NCBI GenBank assembly: GCA_902529105.1
Contig: CABZUW010000001.1
Coordinates: 1-64,000 of the forward strand
DNA: 64,000 bases
Direction: 5' to 3'
Source of the DNA: an uncultured Pelagibacteraceae bacterium
Lineage (GTDB): Bacteria > Pseudomonadota > Alphaproteobacteria > Pelagibacterales > Pelagibacteraceae
In this document: positions 51,856-63,981 of the stretch, piece by piece
How positions within the stretch are numbered: position 1 is the stretch's first letter
Layout of the letters: the number at the start of each line of letters is the position of its first letter
Position numbers and translations under genes: made by a program
The notes under the pieces: generated by a model
Told to the model about the DNA's origin: nothing
The model's input: only the letters and a program-made list of their open reading frames with translations
Databases searched by the model: none

Positions 51856-54800
51856 TTAACTATTCTTTTTTTTAATTATTAGTTTCTTTTCATATTTTTT
51901 TTTATTTTCTTCTTTTTCTAGATCTAAATACATAGACTCTAAGCTATACCAATCCCATTCATTCGTATTAATATGTTCCATTCTGTTCCAATTTTTTCGG
52001 TAATCACTATCTTCCTCATAATCCTCTATATATTCATCATAAAATTTAGGATTATCATATTTCTCATTTTTAAATGCTACTCTCGCTTTTCTAAATTCAG
52101 GAAAATTCACCGATTTCCAGAAGATATCTATATTCTTAATCACTTTTAGATTAACTAACTCATCAAAATTTATTGACTTAAATGGAATGTATAATGACTC
52201 TCCAGATTGTTGGATATTAAGATTTTCAAGTTTCTTTAATTTAGCAATTTTCTTAAAATCTAAAATTTGCGTATCAAGTTTTTGGGTATACCCTTTTTCA
52301 TAATCAAAATATTCACGTCTAGCAGCAATACTAAAACTTAAATCAAGTTTCTCTAACGATAAAAATCTATTGGTAATATTATTTATTATATCTTGAATAG
52401 TAGTTTGATTTTTTATATCAACATTTACAATCAAACTTAGTTTTTTGATTTTATGATTTATAAAATTTATAAATTCACCACTTCCTTTATAACTAGATGA
52501 TATATTTCCATGATGATCACCTTCTGAATTTAGATCTCCTAATCTTAAATTAATATCTTCAATTTTTTTGCAATTTTTAAAAAAAGATAAGTCTTGATCA
52601 CATATTTCTTTATGGGGCTCATAAGCAGTTAAATGATCATCCTTATTAAAATGCATAACCCCAAGATTAATCTTTTTTAAATTTTCAATAGATTTTAGTT
52701 CTTTTAAATCAGAGGCTATTATGTCAGGGATATTTATCTCCTCTAACTTTTTTAAATGATGAAGTTTTGAAAGGTCTACATTTATATAAGACCAAGTATC
52801 TGTGTAATATAAATTGGTCGAATATCCTGTATAACCTAAAGTGTATTTGAATAATCCTTTATTATAAAAATTACCCAAATTTCTAATTTCAATTTTTTGA
52901 AGATTGGGGCAGTTCTCAAATTTTGATAAAGTTACCTTATCCAAAGATTTTCTATGATGATTTTGAAAAAAATTCATTTTTAGAATTTTTAACTTCGGAA
53001 AATGAGGTAAGTCTAAATTCTCACTTTGTAAACAATCACTCAATTTTAAATACTCTAAATTTTCAGTCGGTATAAATTTATCAAATTCATTTAATTTGAT
53101 ATATTTTTCTTGCCATGGATTTACGCCCTCAATCCAACAATGGGTAAGGTTTTTAATTTTTTCATCTTTAATTTCTATGTTATCTACTATCTGAGTGAAA
53201 TCTGTAGGTTTTAAAAAATCTTCTTTAGATAAATTACTATCTTTAAAATCATTTGATAAAACAAATTTTTCACTGATATTTGTTGCAACAGAAAATAACT
53301 TATCTTTAATCTTATTTATCCCCTCTTCATTATTATTAACTAACACTCCTACAATTTTTTTGGCATTCCAATCTTTTTCTGTATAAGACATTTGATGAGA
53401 AACATGATGCAAAGAAGCACCAAAATAAATATATATCTTTTTAAAATTTATATTTGGAATTTTGTCTATTGCGGTTTTCTTGATTACTAAGATTAAGCTA
53501 TCTTTATCTGGCTTAAAGTCACTATCTGAAAAGCCAATAATTCTAATTATCTCTTCATATACATGTTTAAACAAATGGTTTAATTTTGACCATTTTTTTT
53601 CATCATCATTAATGTATTTTGGGTAATGACTTTTTAGATCATCTAGTTGATCACTATTAATAAATGTTTGATCTGGAAAGTAGTTGGATCCATTATAAAA
53701 AATATCATCCACAACAACTACCTGACTAACATTTTCATTTATAAATTTATCGGTCAGTAAATCTAATTTTTTATCACTTGCGCCTAATATTGTGAGGTTA
53801 TCTTTTAGGTTATTAATCTTAATTGAATTATAAAGGTAAATTAAATGAATTTTGAAATTATCTTTACTATCTTTACCATTTATTAACTTTTTAATTTCAG
53901 GGTGATAAATGAATATTTGAGTATCTTTATTATTTAATCTGAGTTCGTATATAAATTTTACTAAAAAACTTATTTGATCTGCACTCCAATCTTCATTGCT
54001 GTCATATTTATCATTTTTGGATAAATCAAAAATAATTGTTTCTAATTTATTTTGATTTTTAAAAAGATGTTCCATTACATCCAATTTTTTTCCTCTATCA
54101 GATCCATAATTATTAATATTTAAAAATCTAAAACACGATTTAAAAATGAAACAAGTTGGATTTGATTTAATTACTTCTTCATAACTTTTGTTTTTTTTGA
54201 TTATAAAAGGTCTGCTATATTTATAAGTGTTATTGTAATAATCAAATTCACTGATATTATAAACATTCTTGTCTATTATAATATTATTCTCTTTTAATAT
54301 AATTAAAAATTCATTATCTAACTGTTGACAAACATTAGTTTTCTCACCTTTAAATCCACAAAAAAAATTTACAGTTTTAAATTCAAGATTTAATTTTGAT
54401 ACGTTGTTAATATTATTAATAGTGAAATTAGTCTTTTGTTTTTCTAAAATTTTTACGAAATGATCTAATCCATTTATATATAAATCACTCAGATTACCGT
54501 TATCAATGATAATATTTTTTAACTTTTTAAAGCGCTTAAGATCATCTATTTTTGTATTCCAATAAATTTCTTTAAATATTTTTTTATTATATTTATCATC
54601 TTCGATTATTCTTTGTTTATAAGTTTGATAATTTATCAATTTAATAACTTCTAAGTTTGGAAATACGATGTGACTATCGGGAACATCAGTTATTGAATTG
54701 TGCTTATTTTTGTAACTTTTTTGAAAATAAGTATTTATTTCAAAATTTGGCTCATCTGGATTTGGAAATTCTAGACAAAATTCTTTTAAAGAAGAAAGTT

Positions 54801-55077
54801 TCAAGTTTTTTTCAAATTTATCGTTCTTTTGCTTATTAAAATAACAATAATGATTTAGTTTTAATTTATTTAATTTTTTAAGTGAAAAAATTGCATTATA
54901 AAATTTCTTAAAATCTAAATAACTGTCTTTTAATATTAATGTTTCTAAATGTTTAAGTTTAGATAATTTTGATAAATCATCATCTAAACTTATGCCCTCT
55001 AATTCTAGTATTTTAAAATTATTTTTAATGTCTAATATGTCTAAATTTGATATTTTGTTTGTATCTTCAATATTCAT
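51856..55077 (-). CDS. 1073-aa leucine-rich-repeat-like protein with a non-LRR central domain
   Basis: LRR-like strands at N-terminus (HLETLILKDSYLDF..KLNKLKLNHY) and C-terminus (LEYLKLSDC..KLKILKMNFF..NLQKIEIRNLG..LEKLDLSFS..LENLNIQQSG). Confidence 0.75.
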   Translation of the reverse strand: MNIEDTNKISNLDILDIKNNFKILELEGISLDDDLSKLSKLKHLETLILKDSYLDFKKFYNAIFSLKKLNKLKLNHYCYFNKQKNDKFEKNLKLSSLKEFCLEFPNPDEPNFEINTYFQKSYKNKHNSITDVPDSHIVFPNLEVIKLINYQTYKQRIIEDDKYNKKIFKEIYWNTKIDDLKRFKKLKNIIIDNGNLSDLYINGLDHFVKILEKQKTNFTINNINNVSKLNLEFKTVNFFCGFKGEKTNVCQQLDNEFLIILKENNIIIDKNVYNISEFDYYNNTYKYSRPFIIKKNKSYEEVIKSNPTCFIFKSCFRFLNINNYGSDRGKKLDVMEHLFKNQNKLETIIFDLSKNDKYDSNEDWSADQISFLVKFIYELRLNNKDTQIFIYHPEIKKLINGKDSKDNFKIHLIYLYNSIKINNLKDNLTILGASDKKLDLLTDKFINENVSQVVVVDDIFYNGSNYFPDQTFINSDQLDDLKSHYPKYINDDEKKWSKLNHLFKHVYEEIIRIIGFSDSDFKPDKDSLILVIKKTAIDKIPNINFKKIYIYFGASLHHVSHQMSYTEKDWNAKKIVGVLVNNNEEGINKIKDKLFSVATNISEKFVLSNDFKDSNLSKEDFLKPTDFTQIVDNIEIKDEKIKNLTHCWIEGVNPWQEKYIKLNEFDKFIPTENLEYLKLSDCLQSENLDLPHFPKLKILKMNFFQNHHRKSLDKVTLSKFENCPNLQKIEIRNLGNFYNKGLFKYTLGYTGYSTNLYYTDTWSYINVDLSKLHHLKKLEEINIPDIIASDLKELKSIENLKKINLGVMHFNKDDHLTAYEPHKEICDQDLSFFKNCKKIEDINLRLGDLNSEGDHHGNISSSYKGSGEFINFINHKIKKLSLIVNVDIKNQTTIQDIINNITNRFLSLEKLDLSFSIAARREYFDYEKGYTQKLDTQILDFKKIAKLKKLENLNIQQSGESLYIPFKSINFDELVNLKVIKNIDIFWKSVNFPEFRKARVAFKNEKYDNPKFYDEYIEDYEEDSDYRKNWNRMEHINTNEWDWYSLESMYLDLEKEENKKKYEKKLIIKKKNS

Positions 55078-55085
55078 CGGTTAAT

Positions 55086-55118
55086 TTATATCAGAAGATT
55101 ATTATTATTTTGATATAA
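55086..55118. promoter_or_regulatory. Inverted repeat in divergent LRR/Hsp70 promoter region
   Basis: TTATATCA-N17-TGATATAA. Confidence 0.5.
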
Positions 55119-55131
55119 TTAAAAATATAAA

Positions 55132-56679
55132 ATGAGTAAAATTATTGGTATAGACTTAGGAACTACTTATAGTGCAATAGCACAATTAGATGATTTGGGA
55201 ACACCTGAGGTATTAGCATCTACAGATAATAATAAAAAAATCACAGCAAGTTCTGTTTATATTAAAGATCAAAATGTTATTGTTGGTGACAAGGCTCTTG
55301 ATGCTCTAGAAACAGCTCCAAAACAAGTTATTACTGAGACCAAAAGACAAATGGAAAATGATGTAGTGTACTCTGTTGATGAAGGAAAATGGATAGATAA
55401 AGATGAAAAAAATAAAGATTATTATTCTCCAGCTCAAATATCTTCTTTTATATTGTCTAAACTTAAAGGTTATGCATCTGATGTTAAGAAAGCAGTAATA
55501 ACTGTTCCAGCATTATTTGCTGAAAAAGCAAGGGTAGCTACATTAGATGCTGCAAAAATGGCAGGGATAGAGGTTATAAGTTTAATCAATGAGCCGACTG
55601 CAGCTGCTTGTTATTATGCGAGTCTGCCAAATGTAAAAAAAATTACAGGAAAAATTTTGGTGTTTGATTTGGGGGGTGGAACATTTGATGTAACTGTTTG
55701 TGAAGTAAGAGGTGAAGAGGTTGAGGTTATAACTAGTAGAGGTGATAAATGGCTTGGTGGTAAAGATTTCGACAAAGAATTAATAAATTTAATAAATGAA
55801 AAATATAAAAAAATAAGTGGAAAAGAGTTAGATATCGAAAATCATTATTCTAAGTATATGGAAGTAGCTGAACAAATAAAAAGAGTTTTATCAGTTAGAG
55901 ATAAACAAACAGAAAAAATTGATGGACCAGATGGTGTAAAGGAAATAGAAATTACAAGAGCAGAATTTGAACAATCAATTCAAACTCACATAGAAAAACT
56001 CAAAATGCTAATGGAAGAGGCTCTTGATGGCAGTGGATTAAAAGCTGAAAACGTTAGTCATACATTACTTGTTGGTGGGTCAACTAGAATTCCAATAATA
56101 ACGAAGACTATTGAACAAGTGATGAAAAAACCTCCATTAAAAGGTGTAAACGTTGATGAGGCTGTGGCTGCTGGAGCTGCAATTTACGCAGGTTTAAAAT
56201 CTAAGAAAAATTTAAATGACGCACAAAAAAAAGCAATTTCTAATGTTAAACTACAAGATGTTTGTAATTTTTATCTAGGAACATTAGTCCAAGAAGATGA
56301 CCCGGTTTTAAATAGAAAAGTTACGAGTAATTTAATTTTAATTGATCGAGATACTCCTTTACCAGCTACAAAAAGTTCAAGATTAGTAACAATTTATGAT
56401 GATCAAGAAGCTATCTCAATTGATATTACTCAAAGTGAAGGAAGAGAAAAAAATAGAGAATTTGTAAATATTATCCACCAAGGCGAATTAAAATTTCCTG
56501 ACAAAAAACCAAAAGGTAGACCTATCGATGTAACCTACACCTATGACACTTCTGGCAAACTTCATTGCATTTTTGAGGATGAAGCAACTAAAGAAAAATA
56601 CGAAGTATCAATAAGACCAGAGTCTGCAGAAGATTTAAGAAAAAACTATGAAGCTATTGAACACATAATGATTGAATAA
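55132..56679 (+). CDS. Hsp70/DnaK-family chaperone, short (lidless) form
   Basis: IIGIDLGTTYSAIAQLD, VITVPALFAEKAR, INEPTAAACYYA, VFDLGGGTFDVTV, LLVGGSTRIPII; ends after the substrate-binding beta region. Confidence 0.93.
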   Translation: MSKIIGIDLGTTYSAIAQLDDLGTPEVLASTDNNKKITASSVYIKDQNVIVGDKALDALETAPKQVITETKRQMENDVVYSVDEGKWIDKDEKNKDYYSPAQISSFILSKLKGYASDVKKAVITVPALFAEKARVATLDAAKMAGIEVISLINEPTAAACYYASLPNVKKITGKILVFDLGGGTFDVTVCEVRGEEVEVITSRGDKWLGGKDFDKELINLINEKYKKISGKELDIENHYSKYMEVAEQIKRVLSVRDKQTEKIDGPDGVKEIEITRAEFEQSIQTHIEKLKMLMEEALDGSGLKAENVSHTLLVGGSTRIPIITKTIEQVMKKPPLKGVNVDEAVAAGAAIYAGLKSKKNLNDAQKKAISNVKLQDVCNFYLGTLVQEDDPVLNRKVTSNLILIDRDTPLPATKSSRLVTIYDDQEAISIDITQSEGREKNREFVNIIHQGELKFPDKKPKGRPIDVTYTYDTSGKLHCIFEDEATKEKYEVSIRPESAEDLRKNYEAIEHIMIE

Positions 56680-56684
56680 TTTTT

Positions 56685-59300
56685 GTGATTAAAAAACAAA
56701 ATATTAAAAGAAACCCTCAAAGACTAAAACATAAAGTTAGACTTGATATAGAATTCTATGAAGATCCAAAAAATAAAAAAATCGAATTATTGATAGTTTT
56801 CATACAAAAAGGAGGTGTCTCTGATGGAAAATTATTACTCGGTGACATTATCAAATCTATAAATGGTATTGCGGTAAACAATAAAGAGATTCAATTCGAT
56901 AATGAAATAAACAAAATAAACTGGGGGGATGAAATTATATTGGAAGTAGAAAGAAAAAATAAAATTCAAAATATAAAAATCAAAACATTATCTTTTGAAA
57001 ATTATAAAAAAACGCATGCTGTTTGGGGAATCGATATAAAAGAGGAAAAAAAACAAATGGTCATTAAAAGTTATGGTATTGAGTATAACTACAGTAATTA
57101 TATTGAACCAGGAGACATTTTATTAGAAATCAATTCTGTAAAGATTAATTCTCTTAATGATTTAAACAAAGAAAAATCTAAGTATAAAGTTGGAGATACT
57201 ATTGAATTTAAAATAGAAAGAAAAAAAATTTCTCAGATAAAAAAATTTAAAATCAAATTAATAAATTTTCAAAAAGCGATATTATTAAACAAAAAGTCGT
57301 GTGATAACTATTGGATAAAAAAAGCAGGTACACTAATGTTTAAAGAGTGGGTGGACTCAGACTATGGTTACAACCATAAAGATTGGCTAGGAAGACGTGA
57401 GGAAATTTTAAAGTTAGAAACTATTGCAGAACGTTTTTCTGATGCAAGACATACTGAAAATTCTGATTATATAAAAGATTGGAAAAACAAGGATGCTAAA
57501 CTTCTTACTAAATTATTAAAGCCCGAATATAGAGATATTAATTTTAAACTAAATTTTTTTAGTTTGGTTTTTAATTCAAAAATTATTACAAAATTAAAAA
57601 GTCTTAATTTAAAAAAAGAGTGTTGCTACTCGTATATTTTAACAGGAAAAGTTATTGGTGGAGATTGGGATAAAGATGTTCCTGCAAATATAAAAAACTT
57701 TGAAAAGTTAATTTCCGTCAAAGATAAAAAAAAAGAAATATTTGTTGATGAAATTTCAGATGTATCCTTGAACTTTTTTTTTAATGAAATGGTAGATAAA
57801 AAAAAAGATATTTTTATCAAATATAAATCAGATAATAAGTTTTGGAAATTTTCAAATAAAAAACAAACAAAACTGTCTACTATTCAATCCCTTGGATTTG
57901 AAGATATTGCGACAAATTTAGGATATTGGTTTGAATCAAAATATAAATTTAATAAAGCAAAAATAAAATTAGCAGTAGATGATTTTTGTAGAAGCTTTTT
58001 TTTAGAATATCCTGATTTTGATCTTGAGAGAATAAAGGAAATTGAAAAAATGGATCTTCAAGATGAGCCAGAATATGATGAAAATGATTATAGTTCCGAT
58101 CATCAAAATAAAATTTATATTTCAACAAGTGTTAGTAAAAAAAAAGTAGCCGGAAAAGAATCATTTTTGGTTAAATTAAATAATTTACCTACTGATGAAG
58201 AAATAGAAGATTATAATATTGGAAAAAAAATTTATCTAAAAATTTATATTTATGATATCACAGATTTAGATGAAGATAGTTTCTTCAAGATTCAAGAAAA
58301 TGGTGAGGATACAAGGCAGTATTTTCTCAACAATTGTCATGTAATTAAAACAGAAGATTTATCTTGGTCCGAAGGTAATGGAATATTAGTTCAAACTGTT
58401 GAATTAAACCTTTATGAATATAAACCTACAGAGTTAGCTTTTCCTTACTCAAAATTACAATTACCAAAATATGGAAAAAGAAAACTATCTTTTAGAACTT
58501 TTATCTGCACCGAAGATCAAAAATTTGATGAAAACGATGGAAGATTTATTACTAATGATAGTCCAACATTCAGGTCAGAAGAGTATCTTTTAGAAAGTTA
58601 TTCAGAAGGATTTGATGAATATGGTGATTACACAGATATTTTATCTTACTCATCCTCTGAAATAGAAGTTGAATATAAACAGCCTGGTTATCTAGAAATT
58701 AATAGACGAAAATATAATGATCTTAAAATTGCTTTGAGTTTAGCTTTAAACCAGGATGATAAGAATGATCAGAAAGCTAATTTAGAAAAAATTAAAGACT
58801 CAGTGAGATACGGTGATTTTACCGTTGAGGGAAATATCCATAAAATTCTTAGTTTGAAAAAAAATTATGAAAAATCTCTAAATAGAAAATTAAATTTAGA
58901 TAATATTCTTAAAGACTTAAAGAAAAATTCTGTAATACACGAAAGATATGAAATAATAGATTTTTTACTTAATCTCGCAACAAAAGATGAAACTTTTAAT
59001 AGTAAAGAAAATAAGTTCATCGACAAAGTTTCTCATGAACTAGAACTAAATAAGGAGAAATATCAAGAAATTAAAAAACAAAAAACTTCGTCTGTAAAAT
59101 TTGTAGATTTTGGTGAAGAGGTTGAGGAAAGTGTTTTTGGGATTAACAAAGATATGACTAAAGATGAAAAGCTTAAAATTTTAAGAAAAGAATATAGTAG
59201 ATGGAATGCTTTAACAAATAATACCGACAAAATGATTAGGGAAAGAGCTAAAGAAATGAGAGATTTAGCAGCGAATTTGAGAACTCAATACAGCAAATAA
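56685..59300 (+). CDS. 871-aa PDZ-PDZ protein with TerB-like and degenerate J-like C-terminus
   Basis: LLGDIIKSINGIAV and EPGDILLEINSVKI (two PDZ-like units); HERYEIIDFLLNLATKDETFNSKENKFIDKVSHEL (TerB-like); MTKDEKLKILRKEYSRW (J-like, no HPD); GTG start. Confidence 0.65.
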   Translation: MIKKQNIKRNPQRLKHKVRLDIEFYEDPKNKKIELLIVFIQKGGVSDGKLLLGDIIKSINGIAVNNKEIQFDNEINKINWGDEIILEVERKNKIQNIKIKTLSFENYKKTHAVWGIDIKEEKKQMVIKSYGIEYNYSNYIEPGDILLEINSVKINSLNDLNKEKSKYKVGDTIEFKIERKKISQIKKFKIKLINFQKAILLNKKSCDNYWIKKAGTLMFKEWVDSDYGYNHKDWLGRREEILKLETIAERFSDARHTENSDYIKDWKNKDAKLLTKLLKPEYRDINFKLNFFSLVFNSKIITKLKSLNLKKECCYSYILTGKVIGGDWDKDVPANIKNFEKLISVKDKKKEIFVDEISDVSLNFFFNEMVDKKKDIFIKYKSDNKFWKFSNKKQTKLSTIQSLGFEDIATNLGYWFESKYKFNKAKIKLAVDDFCRSFFLEYPDFDLERIKEIEKMDLQDEPEYDENDYSSDHQNKIYISTSVSKKKVAGKESFLVKLNNLPTDEEIEDYNIGKKIYLKIYIYDITDLDEDSFFKIQENGEDTRQYFLNNCHVIKTEDLSWSEGNGILVQTVELNLYEYKPTELAFPYSKLQLPKYGKRKLSFRTFICTEDQKFDENDGRFITNDSPTFRSEEYLLESYSEGFDEYGDYTDILSYSSSEIEVEYKQPGYLEINRRKYNDLKIALSLALNQDDKNDQKANLEKIKDSVRYGDFTVEGNIHKILSLKKNYEKSLNRKLNLDNILKDLKKNSVIHERYEIIDFLLNLATKDETFNSKENKFIDKVSHELELNKEKYQEIKKQKTSSVKFVDFGEEVEESVFGINKDMTKDEKLKILRKEYSRWNALTNNTDKMIRERAKEMRDLAANLRTQYSK

Positions 59301-59307
59301 TTTGTCA

Positions 59308-60435
59308 CTATTTTATCTTATCAATTAATTTTTTTAAAACAGAACCTGCATCTTTATTATGGTTATCAGATTCTGCAAATATTTCTTTTAAAGTCGATAT
59401 TATCTTTTGTTTATCGGATTTCATTAAAATTTTTGCCTCATTAAATGCATTTTCGATTCTTTTTTCTACTACAGACATTTTTGATATGTTCAAAAGACTC
59501 TTAATGCTTATTGCTGCTTTTTCTCCAAATCTTTTTTTGAATTTTTCTTGTTCATCTTTAGAAAACTTTTTATCTGCGAGATAGATACTTAATGATCCCC
59601 ATAGTAAAGCTTTATTAATTATTTCCTTGTTAGAGTTATCTAATTCGTTTCCCGTTACTTTTTTTATACTTTCATTAATCTTCCTATCAACCACTTTTAG
59701 GTCATAGACACCTTTTTTATCTGTTTTGAAAAATTCGTTATATTCATGGCTCATTGAAAACCATATCAAGGCCTGCATTCTATTAAGGAATGTCGGATGA
59801 GTATCATACAGTAGATTATTGTTTCCTTGTAACTTTTTTAATTCTCTCAGTTGATCTAAATAAGAACTAAAATTAAAAGATATATGTTCATCACTAAGAC
59901 CAGTAGATATTTTTAACATTGCTCTTAAAGAGTTCTCGATACTTCCTGACCCTAATAAACCAGCGCGATCAGCCGAAATTTCTGCAGCTCTACTTAAATT
60001 AAGAAAATTGAGATATTCGTTTCTTGTCCTTGCTTTTTCAATAGGTGGATAAAGACTATGCTGATAATAAAAATGGGAAATCTCGTGGGCAATAACACTC
60101 TCTAACTCGCCAGGATTTAATAATTCAACCATCTTTGATGTAATAATTATTTCAGCATTCAAACTTTGAGGCATCATGGCACAAGCTGCTTGAGTTTGAA
60201 TATGATTTGCAGTTACAAAAAAATTAAAGTTATTTTTAACACCAAGTCTTTTAAAAACTTTATCTATGGAACTAGCAATTTTTGGAAATAAGTTTTCGCT
60301 TACTTTAACTGAACTTGATAATAAATTTCTTAAGTTTTGATTATTATAATTTTTTGTATCATTTTTATTGTCTTGAACGATTCCTAATTCATTCAAATCG
60401 TCGTATGTATATCTAAATCTATCCAAAAAATTCAT
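59308..60435 (-). CDS. M48-family metallopeptidase with TerB-like C-terminal domain
   Basis: ESVIAHEISHFYYQHS (HExxH) and AAEISADRAGLLG (third ligand); C-terminal ALLWGSLSIYLADKKFSKDEQEKFKKRFG. Confidence 0.8.
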   Translation of the reverse strand: MNFLDRFRYTYDDLNELGIVQDNKNDTKNYNNQNLRNLLSSSVKVSENLFPKIASSIDKVFKRLGVKNNFNFFVTANHIQTQAACAMMPQSLNAEIIITSKMVELLNPGELESVIAHEISHFYYQHSLYPPIEKARTRNEYLNFLNLSRAAEISADRAGLLGSGSIENSLRAMLKISTGLSDEHISFNFSSYLDQLRELKKLQGNNNLLYDTHPTFLNRMQALIWFSMSHEYNEFFKTDKKGVYDLKVVDRKINESIKKVTGNELDNSNKEIINKALLWGSLSIYLADKKFSKDEQEKFKKRFGEKAAISIKSLLNISKMSVVEKRIENAFNEAKILMKSDKQKIISTLKEIFAESDNHNKDAGSVLKKLIDKIK

Positions 60436-61037
60436 TTATTTTTTATCTTATTAATAATTTTTTTAATTTCCTTTATACTATCTTCATGTGGTGGAAATGA
60501 ATTGTTAAAGTTGCCATAATTTTCACTTGTTTTAAATCTTATTGTTTTACTCCCTCTAGAAGTTTCTTCTATACTTAAATAAATTCCTTGCTCCCTCAGA
60601 TTAAAAACCTTTTCAAGAAATCTATTTGACAATTTAACATCATAATCCTTGAATTTAGATACTTGATTATCTATTGTTTGTCCCTTTAGATTATTTTTAT
60701 TAAATTTAGGATCATTTAACCGACTATAAATAAGTGTAGTACTAACTTTTCCTTTTGGTTTTTCAGTAATGTTTTTTGGAAGATTTTCGTTAATAATTTT
60801 TTTTGCACCCTCAACGCTTATGAAGCTATTTTTAGGTTGTTTGCTAAAATATTTTAAAATTTCTTGGTCCTTTATTTTTTGAACTGAACCAAATTTAAAT
60901 TTTTTTTCATAGATTTTTAATATTTTAATATTATTTCCATTAACCTTTTCACCTGCGGCTTTAATTAATTGACTTTTGTTATCCCATACTATCTCTTTAT
61001 TATTAATTTTATTCTCTAAAAATTCTTTTAATCTCAT
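60432..61037 (-). CDS. Hypothetical basic protein
   Basis: 201-aa ORF overlapping the M48 gene start by 4 nt. Confidence 0.6.
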   Translation of the reverse strand: MRLKEFLENKINNKEIVWDNKSQLIKAAGEKVNGNNIKILKIYEKKFKFGSVQKIKDQEILKYFSKQPKNSFISVEGAKKIINENLPKNITEKPKGKVSTTLIYSRLNDPKFNKNNLKGQTIDNQVSKFKDYDVKLSNRFLEKVFNLREQGIYLSIEETSRGSKTIRFKTSENYGNFNNSFPPHEDSIKEIKKIINKIKNK

Positions 61038-61462
61038 TTCGATTTATTCCTATAATAATATTCTCTATCTCTTTTTCTTTTTTTAATTAATTGTTCCTCA
61101 GTGAGATTCCGATGTCTTTCTTTATAATGCTTCTTTTTTTTATTTAACGGCATTAAATCTCTGTATCTTTTTGATTTGTATCTTTTTCTTAAAGTTTTTT
61201 CAGAAATATTTTTTGTTTTAAAATCATCGATTGATTGATCCGATGAGTGGTTAAAAATTTTAGATAATGGCAGTTTGTTGCCATGATGACCAAAAATTAA
61301 ACCCGGTCTTTCAGTTTCTTTTCTTGTTAATATTTTTTTATTTCTAAAAGTTTTTTTTGTCCAAAAACTGGGTTTTAAATTAATTATTTTTTGAATTTCC
61401 TCATTGCTTCGTAATATCCACTGATTATGACCTTCTGGGTTCCTGTTAAAAATTTTTTTCAA
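61034..61462 (-). CDS. Hypothetical highly basic protein
   Basis: 142-aa ORF, 4-nt overlap with the next gene, Lys/Arg-rich tail. Confidence 0.6.
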   Translation of the reverse strand: MKKIFNRNPEGHNQWILRSNEEIQKIINLKPSFWTKKTFRNKKILTRKETERPGLIFGHHGNKLPLSKIFNHSSDQSIDDFKTKNISEKTLRKRYKSKRYRDLMPLNKKKKHYKERHRNLTEEQLIKKRKRDREYYYRNKSK

Positions 61463-61463
61463 A

Positions 61464-61643
61464 TTATTCTATTAAATCTTTCCAACTTTTTTCAGTTTCA
61501 GATTTAGGGCTGCTATTGTTTTTATTATTGTCTTTTTCTTTTTTCATTTCTTTGTAAAGATTAATAAAATCTTGTCTGGAACCTTTTTTCTTTCCCATTT
61601 CCCTAAATTTATTTGTCCACTTGTTTCTGTTCTTTTTATCCAT
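61464..61643 (-). CDS. 59-aa hypothetical protein, absent from the ORF track
   Basis: MDKKNRNKWTNKFREMGKKKGSRQDFINLYKEMKKEKDNNKNNSSPKSETEKSWKDLIE; fills the gap between flanking same-strand genes. Confidence 0.6.
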   Translation of the reverse strand: MDKKNRNKWTNKFREMGKKKGSRQDFINLYKEMKKEKDNNKNNSSPKSETEKSWKDLIE

Positions 61644-61645
61644 TT

Positions 61646-62737
61646 TTATTTCAACTTCATGTCCCTGTGTTTGTCTAAAAATGCTGAAAGCCCTATTTTT
61701 TCTATTTCAGAATAAAGTTCCTCTAAATTAATGTCCATAGAATCTAATTTTGTTATTGCATCTTCAATGTTTTTTTTTGCAGATTTTAATTTTTTTCTTG
61801 TGTCAGATTTATCCTCTATTGATTTAAAAGTTGCGTTTTTAACTTTTGGATTTTCCCAAAACTTTAATGCAGAAAGTTCATTTTCTTTACCCGATTTTCT
61901 TTCTTTTGAGAGTTGAGTAAGTAAATATCTTTGCGTTTGTGCCAATGTCTTTAAAACGTCATAGTCATATTTACATAAAAAAATATTACCTTTGTGATCA
62001 AATTGTACATCTTTAGGAAAATCTTTAGGTAGCGTTCTAGAAAATATTATTCCAATATCAGATCCTGACTCCTTCATATCTTCTTGCAACTTACCTATCC
62101 ATTTATTACTCCAGGCCTTAGTTTTTTTTCTTTCATAAAGAATTTTGCTAATTACTGATCCTTGTTCAATAACTTCTTGTATCCAATCTCCACCTGACTC
62201 GCCTTTTTCATATTCTTGAATTTTATCATTCTTATCTTTGAATATTTTTTTTAAATATTCCCCTAGTGAAATTTCTGCACCAGATCCTTGATCTACAGTA
62301 GTTCCTTGATTTGCAGTTTGACTTAAGGTCTGTATTTGTTTTTTTAATCTAGTCTTATCTAAATCCCATTGATTTTTTTCCTCATTATGTTTATTAAGTT
62401 GATCTTCTCGATCTTTTTTGATCGCATTTTCTATTAGTGCTTCGTAGTGCTCTTTATTCGAAGCTCTGTCAGCTTCAATAGCTTTTTTAATCTCAGCTTT
62501 TTTATCTGCATCAATTTTTTTATTTTTTTCTTCAAGTTCTTGGATTTTGTCGAGATTAGCTTTATTTTTTTTTTCTTCTTCATCTCTTATTGTTTGTTTA
62601 AATTTTTCAAGATTATCTTTATTTTTTTGTCTTTCTTCGTCTCCAATTTTTTTTTTATGTTTTTCAAGATTTTGCTTAATAGCATCCTCCATTGGAAACT
62701 CTGCTTTACATACTGGACACGTTACTTTTTCAATCAT
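61646..62737 (-). CDS. DUF2130-like coiled-coil protein
   Basis: N-terminal CPVC; long coiled coil; GGDWIQEVIEQGSVISKILYERKKTKAWSNKWIGKLQEDMKESGSDIGIIFS. Confidence 0.75.
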   Translation of the reverse strand: MIEKVTCPVCKAEFPMEDAIKQNLEKHKKKIGDEERQKNKDNLEKFKQTIRDEEEKKNKANLDKIQELEEKNKKIDADKKAEIKKAIEADRASNKEHYEALIENAIKKDREDQLNKHNEEKNQWDLDKTRLKKQIQTLSQTANQGTTVDQGSGAEISLGEYLKKIFKDKNDKIQEYEKGESGGDWIQEVIEQGSVISKILYERKKTKAWSNKWIGKLQEDMKESGSDIGIIFSRTLPKDFPKDVQFDHKGNIFLCKYDYDVLKTLAQTQRYLLTQLSKERKSGKENELSALKFWENPKVKNATFKSIEDKSDTRKKLKSAKKNIEDAITKLDSMDINLEELYSEIEKIGLSAFLDKHRDMKLK

Positions 62738-62762
62738 TTGGATCCTCTAGTTTTTAGCTTTA

Positions 62763-63638
62763 TCAATTTATTTTCATTTTTTTCATTTTTTTTATAAGCT
62801 CTTCAAATTCTTTTGAATAAAGCTCTAAAGAATTTTTTGCATTTATTCTCATTTCTAATATTTCTACTAAAGAAGGTAGAACTTTATTAATCAGTTCAAT
62901 GATTTTAATATTTTCCTTAATATCCCCCTTTTTCAAAATAAGTTTTTCATTATACCATCGACAATTATCACAATCACTACCTGAATTTGGCATTTTTTCA
63001 GATTCTAAGCAATTTTTTAAACCAACTAAAGTATCTTCAATATAATCTGTTTTTAATTTGTAAGGTAATAGTGTTGTTTTAAAATTGACTGTTTTGTTAA
63101 ATGTTTTTTGACTTTCGTCTTGAGCATTACAAATCAACCAATAACCAGTATCATGAACTTTAAAGTCATTTATCTTTAAAAGATAAGCATAAAAATCAAG
63201 CTGTCTTAAATAAGATTTATGATAATGTTTATCTGATGAAGTAAAGTCTACTAATTTTTTATTAGACGTAGCTTTATAATCTAAAACAACTATTTCATCG
63301 GTATCTTTGTTTAACCACAAATCGTCTAAAGCACCAAATATTTCTATACCTGTTTTTTTTGATTTGGCTCTAACACCACTTCTATTAAATCTATATTTTT
63401 TTAAAGTTTCTGGATCAAGACCATTATAAGGAACAAAGTTTAAATTATAATCTTTGAATATTGGATGAGGTTCACCTTTTGCTCGTAATTCATCAAATTC
63501 TTCTTTTAATAAGGCGTCTACTCTAGAATTAATTGGATGACCTGGAGTTCCTGGAGGTTTGATTTGATGTTTTTCTAAAAGATAAAAACACAAAGGACAT
63601 TTTATAAAATTATCCCACTTAGTTCTACTTATTTCCAT
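62763..63638 (-). CDS. PD-(D/E)XK nuclease-superfamily (Cas4/RecB-like) protein
   Basis: FIKCPLCFYL, FGALDDLWLNKDTDEIVVLDYKATS, C-terminal SDCDNCRWYNEK. Confidence 0.75.
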   Translation of the reverse strand: MEISRTKWDNFIKCPLCFYLLEKHQIKPPGTPGHPINSRVDALLKEEFDELRAKGEPHPIFKDYNLNFVPYNGLDPETLKKYRFNRSGVRAKSKKTGIEIFGALDDLWLNKDTDEIVVLDYKATSNKKLVDFTSSDKHYHKSYLRQLDFYAYLLKINDFKVHDTGYWLICNAQDESQKTFNKTVNFKTTLLPYKLKTDYIEDTLVGLKNCLESEKMPNSGSDCDNCRWYNEKLILKKGDIKENIKIIELINKVLPSLVEILEMRINAKNSLELYSKEFEELIKKMKKMKIN

Positions 63639-63981
63639 AAGTTCTCCAATTTTTATTCTCTTTTAATTTTTTTGATAAAACTACTTCTTTTAACTTTTCT
63701 GATAAAACTAACATCTCTATCTCATTTTTTTTATACTCATGTCTTATCCTCAAGTACCTAGCTAATCTCAATAGATTATATGGTAAAAAATATATGTTTA
63801 AAACAAGTTTTAATACAGGCCTTGTTTTATAAAATTCTTTATTAGCTTGTTTTCTAATTTCCCTGCTAGCTAAATACATGTCAATATCATGTTTCCAGCT
63901 TTTACAGTAAGTTAGACGATCCTTAAGTTTATTTTTAAAATAGTTATTCATTTTACGTACCTCGCAATTTGTCTGTAACAT
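63625..63981 (-). CDS. Hypothetical protein
   Basis: 118-aa ORF overlapping the nuclease gene start. Confidence 0.5.
   Translation of the reverse strand: MLQTNCEVRKMNNYFKNKLKDRLTYCKSWKHDIDMYLASREIRKQANKEFYKTRPVLKLVLNIYFLPYNLLRLARYLRIRHEYKKNEIEMLVLSEKLKEVVLSKKLKENKNWRTYGNK

Follow-up and report, generated by a model that had tools for sequence, protein, structure and literature searches.

Why does a bacterium of the SAR11 group, whose genomes are among the smallest of free-living bacteria and which is under constant pelagiphage attack, keep a second Hsp70 next to a giant leucine-rich-repeat (LRR) protein, a metallopeptidase and a set of nucleases? The question is raised by the right-hand end of the stretch analysed here (the window), which covers the first 64 kb of contig CABZUW010000001.1 (139 kb) in the 1.12-Mb draft genome of an uncultured Pelagibacteraceae bacterium (GCA_902529105.1); contig positions given below continue the window numbering. 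Four genes, coding for the LRR protein, the Hsp70, a partner with PDZ, TerB and J-like regions and an M48 peptidase, form a core which was shown to be inherited as a unit beside interchangeable nucleases. The locus is made up of three separable modules: a chaperone-protease operon, the LRR gene and the nuclease set. Since SAR11 genomes are tiny and phage attack is constant, the retention of a core of more than 8 kb together with nucleases implies a strong benefit. Judged from sequence, this modular and horizontally exchanged SAR11 system has about an even chance of serving in anti-phage or anti-mobile-element defence, in which the chaperone and the protease would gate the nucleases. The core comprises:

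51856-55077, minus strand: giant LRR protein of 1073 aa, with LRR-like N- and C-terminal stretches, an unassigned middle and a weak LRR_14 match
55078-55131, no strand: divergent spacer of 54 bp between the LRR and Hsp70 genes
55132-56679, plus strand: lidless Hsp70 of 515 aa (HSP70 model, 2.9e-88)
56685-59300, plus strand: co-chaperone-like partner of 871 aa, with two PDZ domains, an unassigned middle part, TerB and a J-like C-terminus devoid of the HPD motif
59308-60435, minus strand: M48 metallopeptidase of 375 aa (Peptidase_M48, 2.3e-14), without a membrane segment

The sequence-only reading of this stretch had named these open reading frames and gene classes, along with the nuclease genes described below, and all of them were found in place, with Pfam support for most of the domain calls. 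The Hsp70 contains the actin-like nucleotide-binding domain (NBD) motifs GIDLGTT, DLGGGTFD, EPTAA and GGSTR and a beta substrate-binding region, and ends at 515 aa without a lid; by these features and its model match it belongs to the Hsp70 family. The housekeeping dnaK and dnaJ genes are located elsewhere in the genome. For the M48 protein, H117-E118-H121, E152, D156 and H213 are invariant in 9 homologues and the same motifs in 11, so that both HExxH and the downstream glutamate ligand are intact, and the HtpX and LoiP models match it weakly. A TerB-like tail which had been ascribed to the peptidase found no support in Pfam.

The partner was matched by PDZ_2 (4e-14) and TerB (1.7e-5). TerB scored 25.5 bits in the window against a Pfam cut-off of 24.4 and 51 bits in a short homologue, and all nine members match. 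While PDZ and TerB were thereby borne out, the proposed J-like end was not confirmed as a J domain: HPD is missing from all partner homologues and the Pfam DnaJ model remained unmatched. Profile similarity of the C-terminus to J domains is weak (E 0.0015, against a best of 0.07 in 60 column shuffles) and, coming from a comparison with four reference J domains, is a lead and not proof. The order of TerB followed by a C-terminal J-like segment resembles DjlA, models of which match weakly; unlike DjlA, the partner has neither HPD nor a Pfam DnaJ match. Among loci, the N-terminal PDZ part is 56-68% identical, compared to 93-98% for the C-terminal TerB/J part. A rapidly varying end, presumably the sensor, joined to a fixed end, presumably the effector, would be the pattern expected of a recognition protein.

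For the LRR protein, the LRR_14 match (6.6e-5) lies under the Pfam cut-off, and none of the NACHT/STAND NTPase models matched, which sets it apart from NLR, bNACHT and STAND proteins. It is 83-90% identical in six other SAR11 loci. A search of the bare genomes with a single LRR sequence proved too insensitive, missing the divergent LRR of genome G649, and was therefore replaced by a profile search. Strong full-length matches were then identified in 4 of the 297 genomes in the order, and all four hold the chaperone core. The chaperone-linked type has 966-1079 aa and was found at full length solely beside chaperones. Profiles of the proteins compared with the PDB gave nothing beyond weak TerB, M48-type and LRR matches, and a Foldseek comparison of the LRR model had no match at E<=0.001.

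Is the core inherited as a unit? A search for the 871-aa protein in 84,980 species genomes identified seven further loci, all in SAR11, and the order LRR(-), Hsp70(+), partner(+), M48(-) is the same in all (L018 is cut inside the LRR gene). The closest named relatives of the locus come from uncultured Pelagibacteraceae genomes with AG- names, which we take to be single-cell naming (one of the six is labelled a metagenome-assembled genome, MAG), and from the Pelagibacterales MAG MED-G40. Both the length and the sequence of the LRR/Hsp70 spacer are well kept in the window-type loci aligned, and this spacer is probably a shared promoter region; a scan for sigma-70 promoters and terminators gave promoter-like sites not above chance, and no RNA families were found at 48-64 kb. 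Three divergent loci (L041, L042, L043) keep the four-gene core, with strands changed in two of them and a GrpE-like gene added in L041 and L042. In L042, the genes RmuC-SbcB-p144-DUF2130-GrpE-Hsp70-TerB/J-M48-LRR share one strand, and no gap or overlap between them exceeds 25 bp.

Distance matrices of Hsp70, TerB/J, M48, GrpE and LRR are correlated with Mantel r of 0.84-0.97, the GrpE-LRR value being void as it comes from two loci. The LRR-bearing loci group together in the Hsp70 tree, as one clade (91/96, just below the star of the tool), and the bare SAR11 operons lie outside it. Strong carriers are 8 of the 297 genomes in the order, and in a sample of 399 Pseudomonadota genomes the window's own was the sole match of the TerB/J profile. 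The co-occurrence elsewhere by which the sequence-only reading wanted its candidate locus to be judged thus holds: homologues stand in fixed order in many genomes, and the core is accessory and mobile.

The mobility was seen at the mraZ/ftsZ-rpoD site. Between L016 and L021, FtsZ is 73% identical with a proportion of differing synonymous sites (pS) of 0.64, compared to 98.8% and 0.23 for Hsp70; between L015 and L016, MlaA is 54% identical (pS 0.69) and the LRR protein 95.5% (pS 0.13). For the L015-L021 pairs, core pS was 0.13-0.49 versus 0.46-0.75 for the flanking ftsZ/mraZ/mlaA and amidase genes, and flanking ftsZ identity was 66-88% versus 96-99% for Hsp70. Since core pS lies below flank pS, the cassette has been transferred between SAR11 lineages at this site. 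The argument rests on this site because a DUF4396 flank, first considered as a conserved insertion site, was rejected: in six relatives its neighbours vary and the island is absent. A phage origin was rejected as well, as neither the M48 nor the TerB/J profile found a relative in IMG/VR. TerB/J had no match among phage or plasmid records, M48 had one weak plasmid match, and phage Hsp70 matches were at most 36% identical. The ratios of nonsynonymous to synonymous substitution (dN/dS; Hsp70 0.02-0.06, M48 0.03-0.05, LRR 0.11-0.16, partner 0.15-0.25) indicate strong purifying selection on the cassette, whose catalytic residues are preserved. The interval from mraZ/ftsZ-mlaA to rpoD/dnaG was itself observed to be a hypervariable hotspot in SAR11 (L015-L017, L020, L021, L096, L098, L099), with cargo of defence-like or sugar gene sets that differs among genomes.

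What does the core travel with? Nuclease genes adjoin it in 11 of 11 LRR-bearing loci, although for L018 no more than the end of a helicase-nuclease gene can be seen. In the window and just beyond, they are:

60432-61037, minus strand: P201, small and basic, part of the nuclease module and kept with P142, DUF2130 and RecB-type genes in L019, L096, L097 and L099
61034-61462, minus strand: P142, small basic protein with the motif NRNPEGHNQW...LTRKETER; homologues 45-54% identical in the same neighbourhood
61646-62737, minus strand: DUF2130 protein with an N-terminal zinc ribbon (C7, C10) and PD-(D/E)XK-like E155...D184...E202xK204
62763-63638, minus strand: Cas4/RecB-like PD-(D/E)XK nuclease with four cysteines (PDDEXK_1, 2.7e-8; Cas4 model, 4e-6)
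63625-63981, minus strand: P118, a conserved protein, small and basic; P129 comes next, outside the window
contig 64109-64498, just outside the window: P129

The tight overlaps reported earlier were measured as 4 bp for M48/P201, 4 bp for P201/P142 and 14 bp for the Cas4-like gene and P118; gaps are 5 bp between Hsp70 and the partner and 183 bp between P142 and DUF2130. Two sets of companions were identified. Set A consists of P201, P142, DUF2130, P118 and P129, together with a nuclease of Cas4-like or DUF2779 type or a Cas4/RNaseH/AAA helicase protein; some members are absent from some loci. Set B, with RmuC, SbcB, p144 and a small PD-(D/E)XK protein, is present in two of the three LRR loci with a helicase-nuclease. 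For DUF2130 (Pfam match, 1.1e-22), the zinc-ribbon and PD-(D/E)XK-like residues are invariant in 8 homologues; for the Cas4-like protein, C14, C17, C223, C226, D105 and D120-Y-K122 are invariant, as are the active-site residues of SbcB. In L020 and L021 the Cas4-like gene is swapped for a DUF2779 protein. Identity of DUF2130 ranges over 25-91% between loci with Hsp70s that share 95-99%, and therefore the nuclease is exchanged as alleles in a fixed frame. The long form of P129 (contig 64109-64498; L099:12651-13037) has an N-terminus that looks by eye like a ribbon-helix-helix DNA-binding domain, which other copies do not have.

How might such a system work? From the domain chemistry and from the precedents of GAP1-N2, CoCoNuT and bNACHT25, a hand-off by Hsp70, sensing by LRR and PDZ regions and a switch-on of nucleases were proposed. 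Sensing of an infection-derived or exposed polypeptide would fall to the LRR protein and to the co-chaperone's variable PDZ end; the TerB/J-like end may load this polypeptide onto Hsp70, with GrpE, where present, resetting the cycle. The Hsp70 would present this client to the M48 protease, whose cut might release or activate the nucleases. These, either DUF2130 with the Cas4, DUF2779 or RecB-helicase protein, or SbcB with RmuC, would then destroy DNA. It is possible, if less than probable, that this is a new class of immunity, in which an Hsp70 cycle, and not a STAND ATPase or a nucleotide messenger, gates M48 and through it exchangeable nucleases, with an LRR sensor and exchange of the cassette in SAR11.

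Several findings weigh against such a coupled defence system. GrpE-Hsp70-TerB/J-M48 operons without a recognised LRR or nuclease gene beside them were identified in SAR11 (L014, L040) and, by an M48 profile match followed by reading of the neighbourhood, in other alphaproteobacterial families (L054, L056-L059), so that the chaperone operon stands alone in several alphaproteobacterial genomes, mostly outside a defence setting. In L096, L097 and L099, set A stands beside another LRR protein, of 691-1431 aa, and chaperones are absent. The sister arrangement, which contains no chaperone genes, is located as follows:

L096:9163-16480, L097:9170-16467 and L099:8524-13037: this other LRR protein together with P201, P142 (except in L099), a nuclease of DUF2130, RecB-helicase or PD-(D/E)XK type, P118 and P129

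Two of these three sit at the same mraZ/ftsZ-rpoD spot. With the operon found alone and the nuclease module found without chaperones, the coupling is optional. M48 and the nuclease genes of the window type, moreover, lie on the strand opposite Hsp70, and AlphaFold models from shallow alignments were unusable for both the partner (predicted local distance difference test, pLDDT, 40) and the LRR protein (pLDDT 45).

Among the remaining loci, L012 breaks off within Hsp70, where the contig stops, L044 is also cut by a contig end, and in L055, another M48-profile match, M48 and TerB/J alone were recognised. The bare operon was observed to consist of a membrane GrpE, a lidless Hsp70, a membrane TerB-J-like protein and M48; in L057 recombinase genes are close to it, and in L058 it is flanked by transposase-like genes.

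The same distribution underlies the first alternative, that two independent accessory systems, chaperone-protease quality control and an LRR/nuclease defence, share one island, as islands collect cargo. Although unlikely, it was kept mainly because set A occurs without chaperones beside another LRR, in L096, L097 and L099, just as the operon occurs without LRR and nucleases in L014, L040, L054 and L056-L059. However, the chaperone-linked LRR is of a different type, found at full length only with its chaperones; the 54-bp spacer is constant in the window type and in L042 the LRR gene lies inside one operon; and LRR distances track those of Hsp70 and M48, with the LRR-bearing Hsp70s in one clade.

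That the cassette serves proteostasis or envelope stress, with Hsp70, GrpE, the J-like protein and M48 clearing damaged proteins beside incidental nuclease neighbours, is rather improbable. Hydrophobic, probably membrane, segments in most short-form partners and in all GrpE proteins would fit such a role, as would the presence of the quality-control proteases HtpX and LoiP in the M48 family and the very low dN/dS of Hsp70 and M48. Yet the cassette is rare and patchy in the order and the phylum sample, it is mobile, and its LRR form invariably has nucleases as neighbours and frequently known defence genes as well. That unrelated genes came together by chance, for which the hypervariability and other cargo of the region might speak, is extremely improbable and already refuted for the four-gene core, which is kept in 11 loci at several chromosomal sites with operon overlaps and correlated divergence.

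Is the proposed chaperone-gated defence a known system under another name? PADLOC (PADLOC-DB 2023) gave no convincing match for LRR, Hsp70, partner or M48, and NCBIfam holds no model naming any of the four. A description of the gene set was not found in the literature, in a search with most subscription journals outside its coverage, so that a recent one could be missed. Hsp70/GrpE/J modules in conflict systems are already known, with a core that differs from this cassette. GAP1-N2 GTPase conflict systems hold Hsp70, GrpE and DnaJ genes (Kaur et al. 2020, PMC7159879), and resemble the cassette in that an Hsp70 is set within a multi-gene system alongside its exchange factor and a protein of J-domain type. 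In contrast, the core genes here yielded neither a GAP1-N2 GTPase nor an FNIII protein; they comprise M48, TerB and LRR proteins with nucleases.

CoCoNuT Type III and Hsp70-McrB systems likewise place an Hsp70-like unit of NBD and substrate-binding domain in a nuclease-bearing defence system, and the domain list for Type III-A operons includes LRR (PMC11090510). Unlike in the cassette, TerB, M48 and GrpE do not occur in the text of that paper, and CnuD is thought to be a poor ATPase whereas the Hsp70 motifs here look intact. No McrB-type GTPase or McrC was found in the window, the island or the companion proteins scanned. Phage sensing by bNACHT25, an innate-immunity-type protein, depends on DnaJ (PMC12169576); the LRR protein here has no NACHT/STAND NTPase match, and its chaperone is encoded in the cassette. 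The SbcB and RmuC of L042 and the SbcB of L041 match the PADLOC models RTasSbcB and RTasRmuC of defence-associated reverse transcriptase (DRT) systems. Membership there was rejected, as the PF00078 reverse transcriptase is absent from the draft genomes G000, G725, G746, G649 and G047.

The block was expected to continue past the window edge, and it does so as an island of about 24 kb (contig 51.8-75.5 kb), of which the cassette is the left half; the right half holds a known defence system, Mza:

contig 66467-67606: C5 DNA methyltransferase, in the right part of the island
contig 67665-69707: AIPR protein, MzaE (PADLOC model, 4e-82)
contig 69704-70699: DUF4420 protein, MzaD (PADLOC model, 2e-15)
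contig 70715-73993: Z1 protein, MzaC (PADLOC model, 5e-111)
contig 73986-75170: GHKL ATPase, MzaB (PADLOC model, 8e-29)
contig 75174-75512: TerB protein of 112 aa, followed by ordinary genes

MzaB-E share the island with the cassette but are a separate system with no gene in common. DrmB lies near the cassette in L019. Both a defence-island location and horizontal mobility were thus found. The sequence-only reading, which had proposed a conflict or proteostasis system, pointed to the right neighbourhood, while immunity itself is still inferred. The gene for the 112-aa TerB protein opens the Mza-type system (contig 67665-75512) and is not recognised as an Mza gene by PADLOC. A 205-aa protein without a Pfam match lies head to head with the C5 DNA methyltransferase (contig 65938-67606), its homologue likewise adjoins a methyltransferase in L019, and it may be a type II restriction enzyme from a family not yet described. 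Elsewhere in the window of this small SAR11 genome (13203-15173), TPR repeats are fused to a family 41 glycosyltransferase domain resembling O-GlcNAc transferase.

Each of Hsp70, M48 proteases and LRR proteins is well known by itself. With a mobile cassette that brings them together with exchangeable nucleases, immunity gated by a chaperone and a protease would become open to direct test. The finding also points to an uncharacterised GrpE-Hsp70-TerB/J-M48 operon standing alone in other Alphaproteobacteria.

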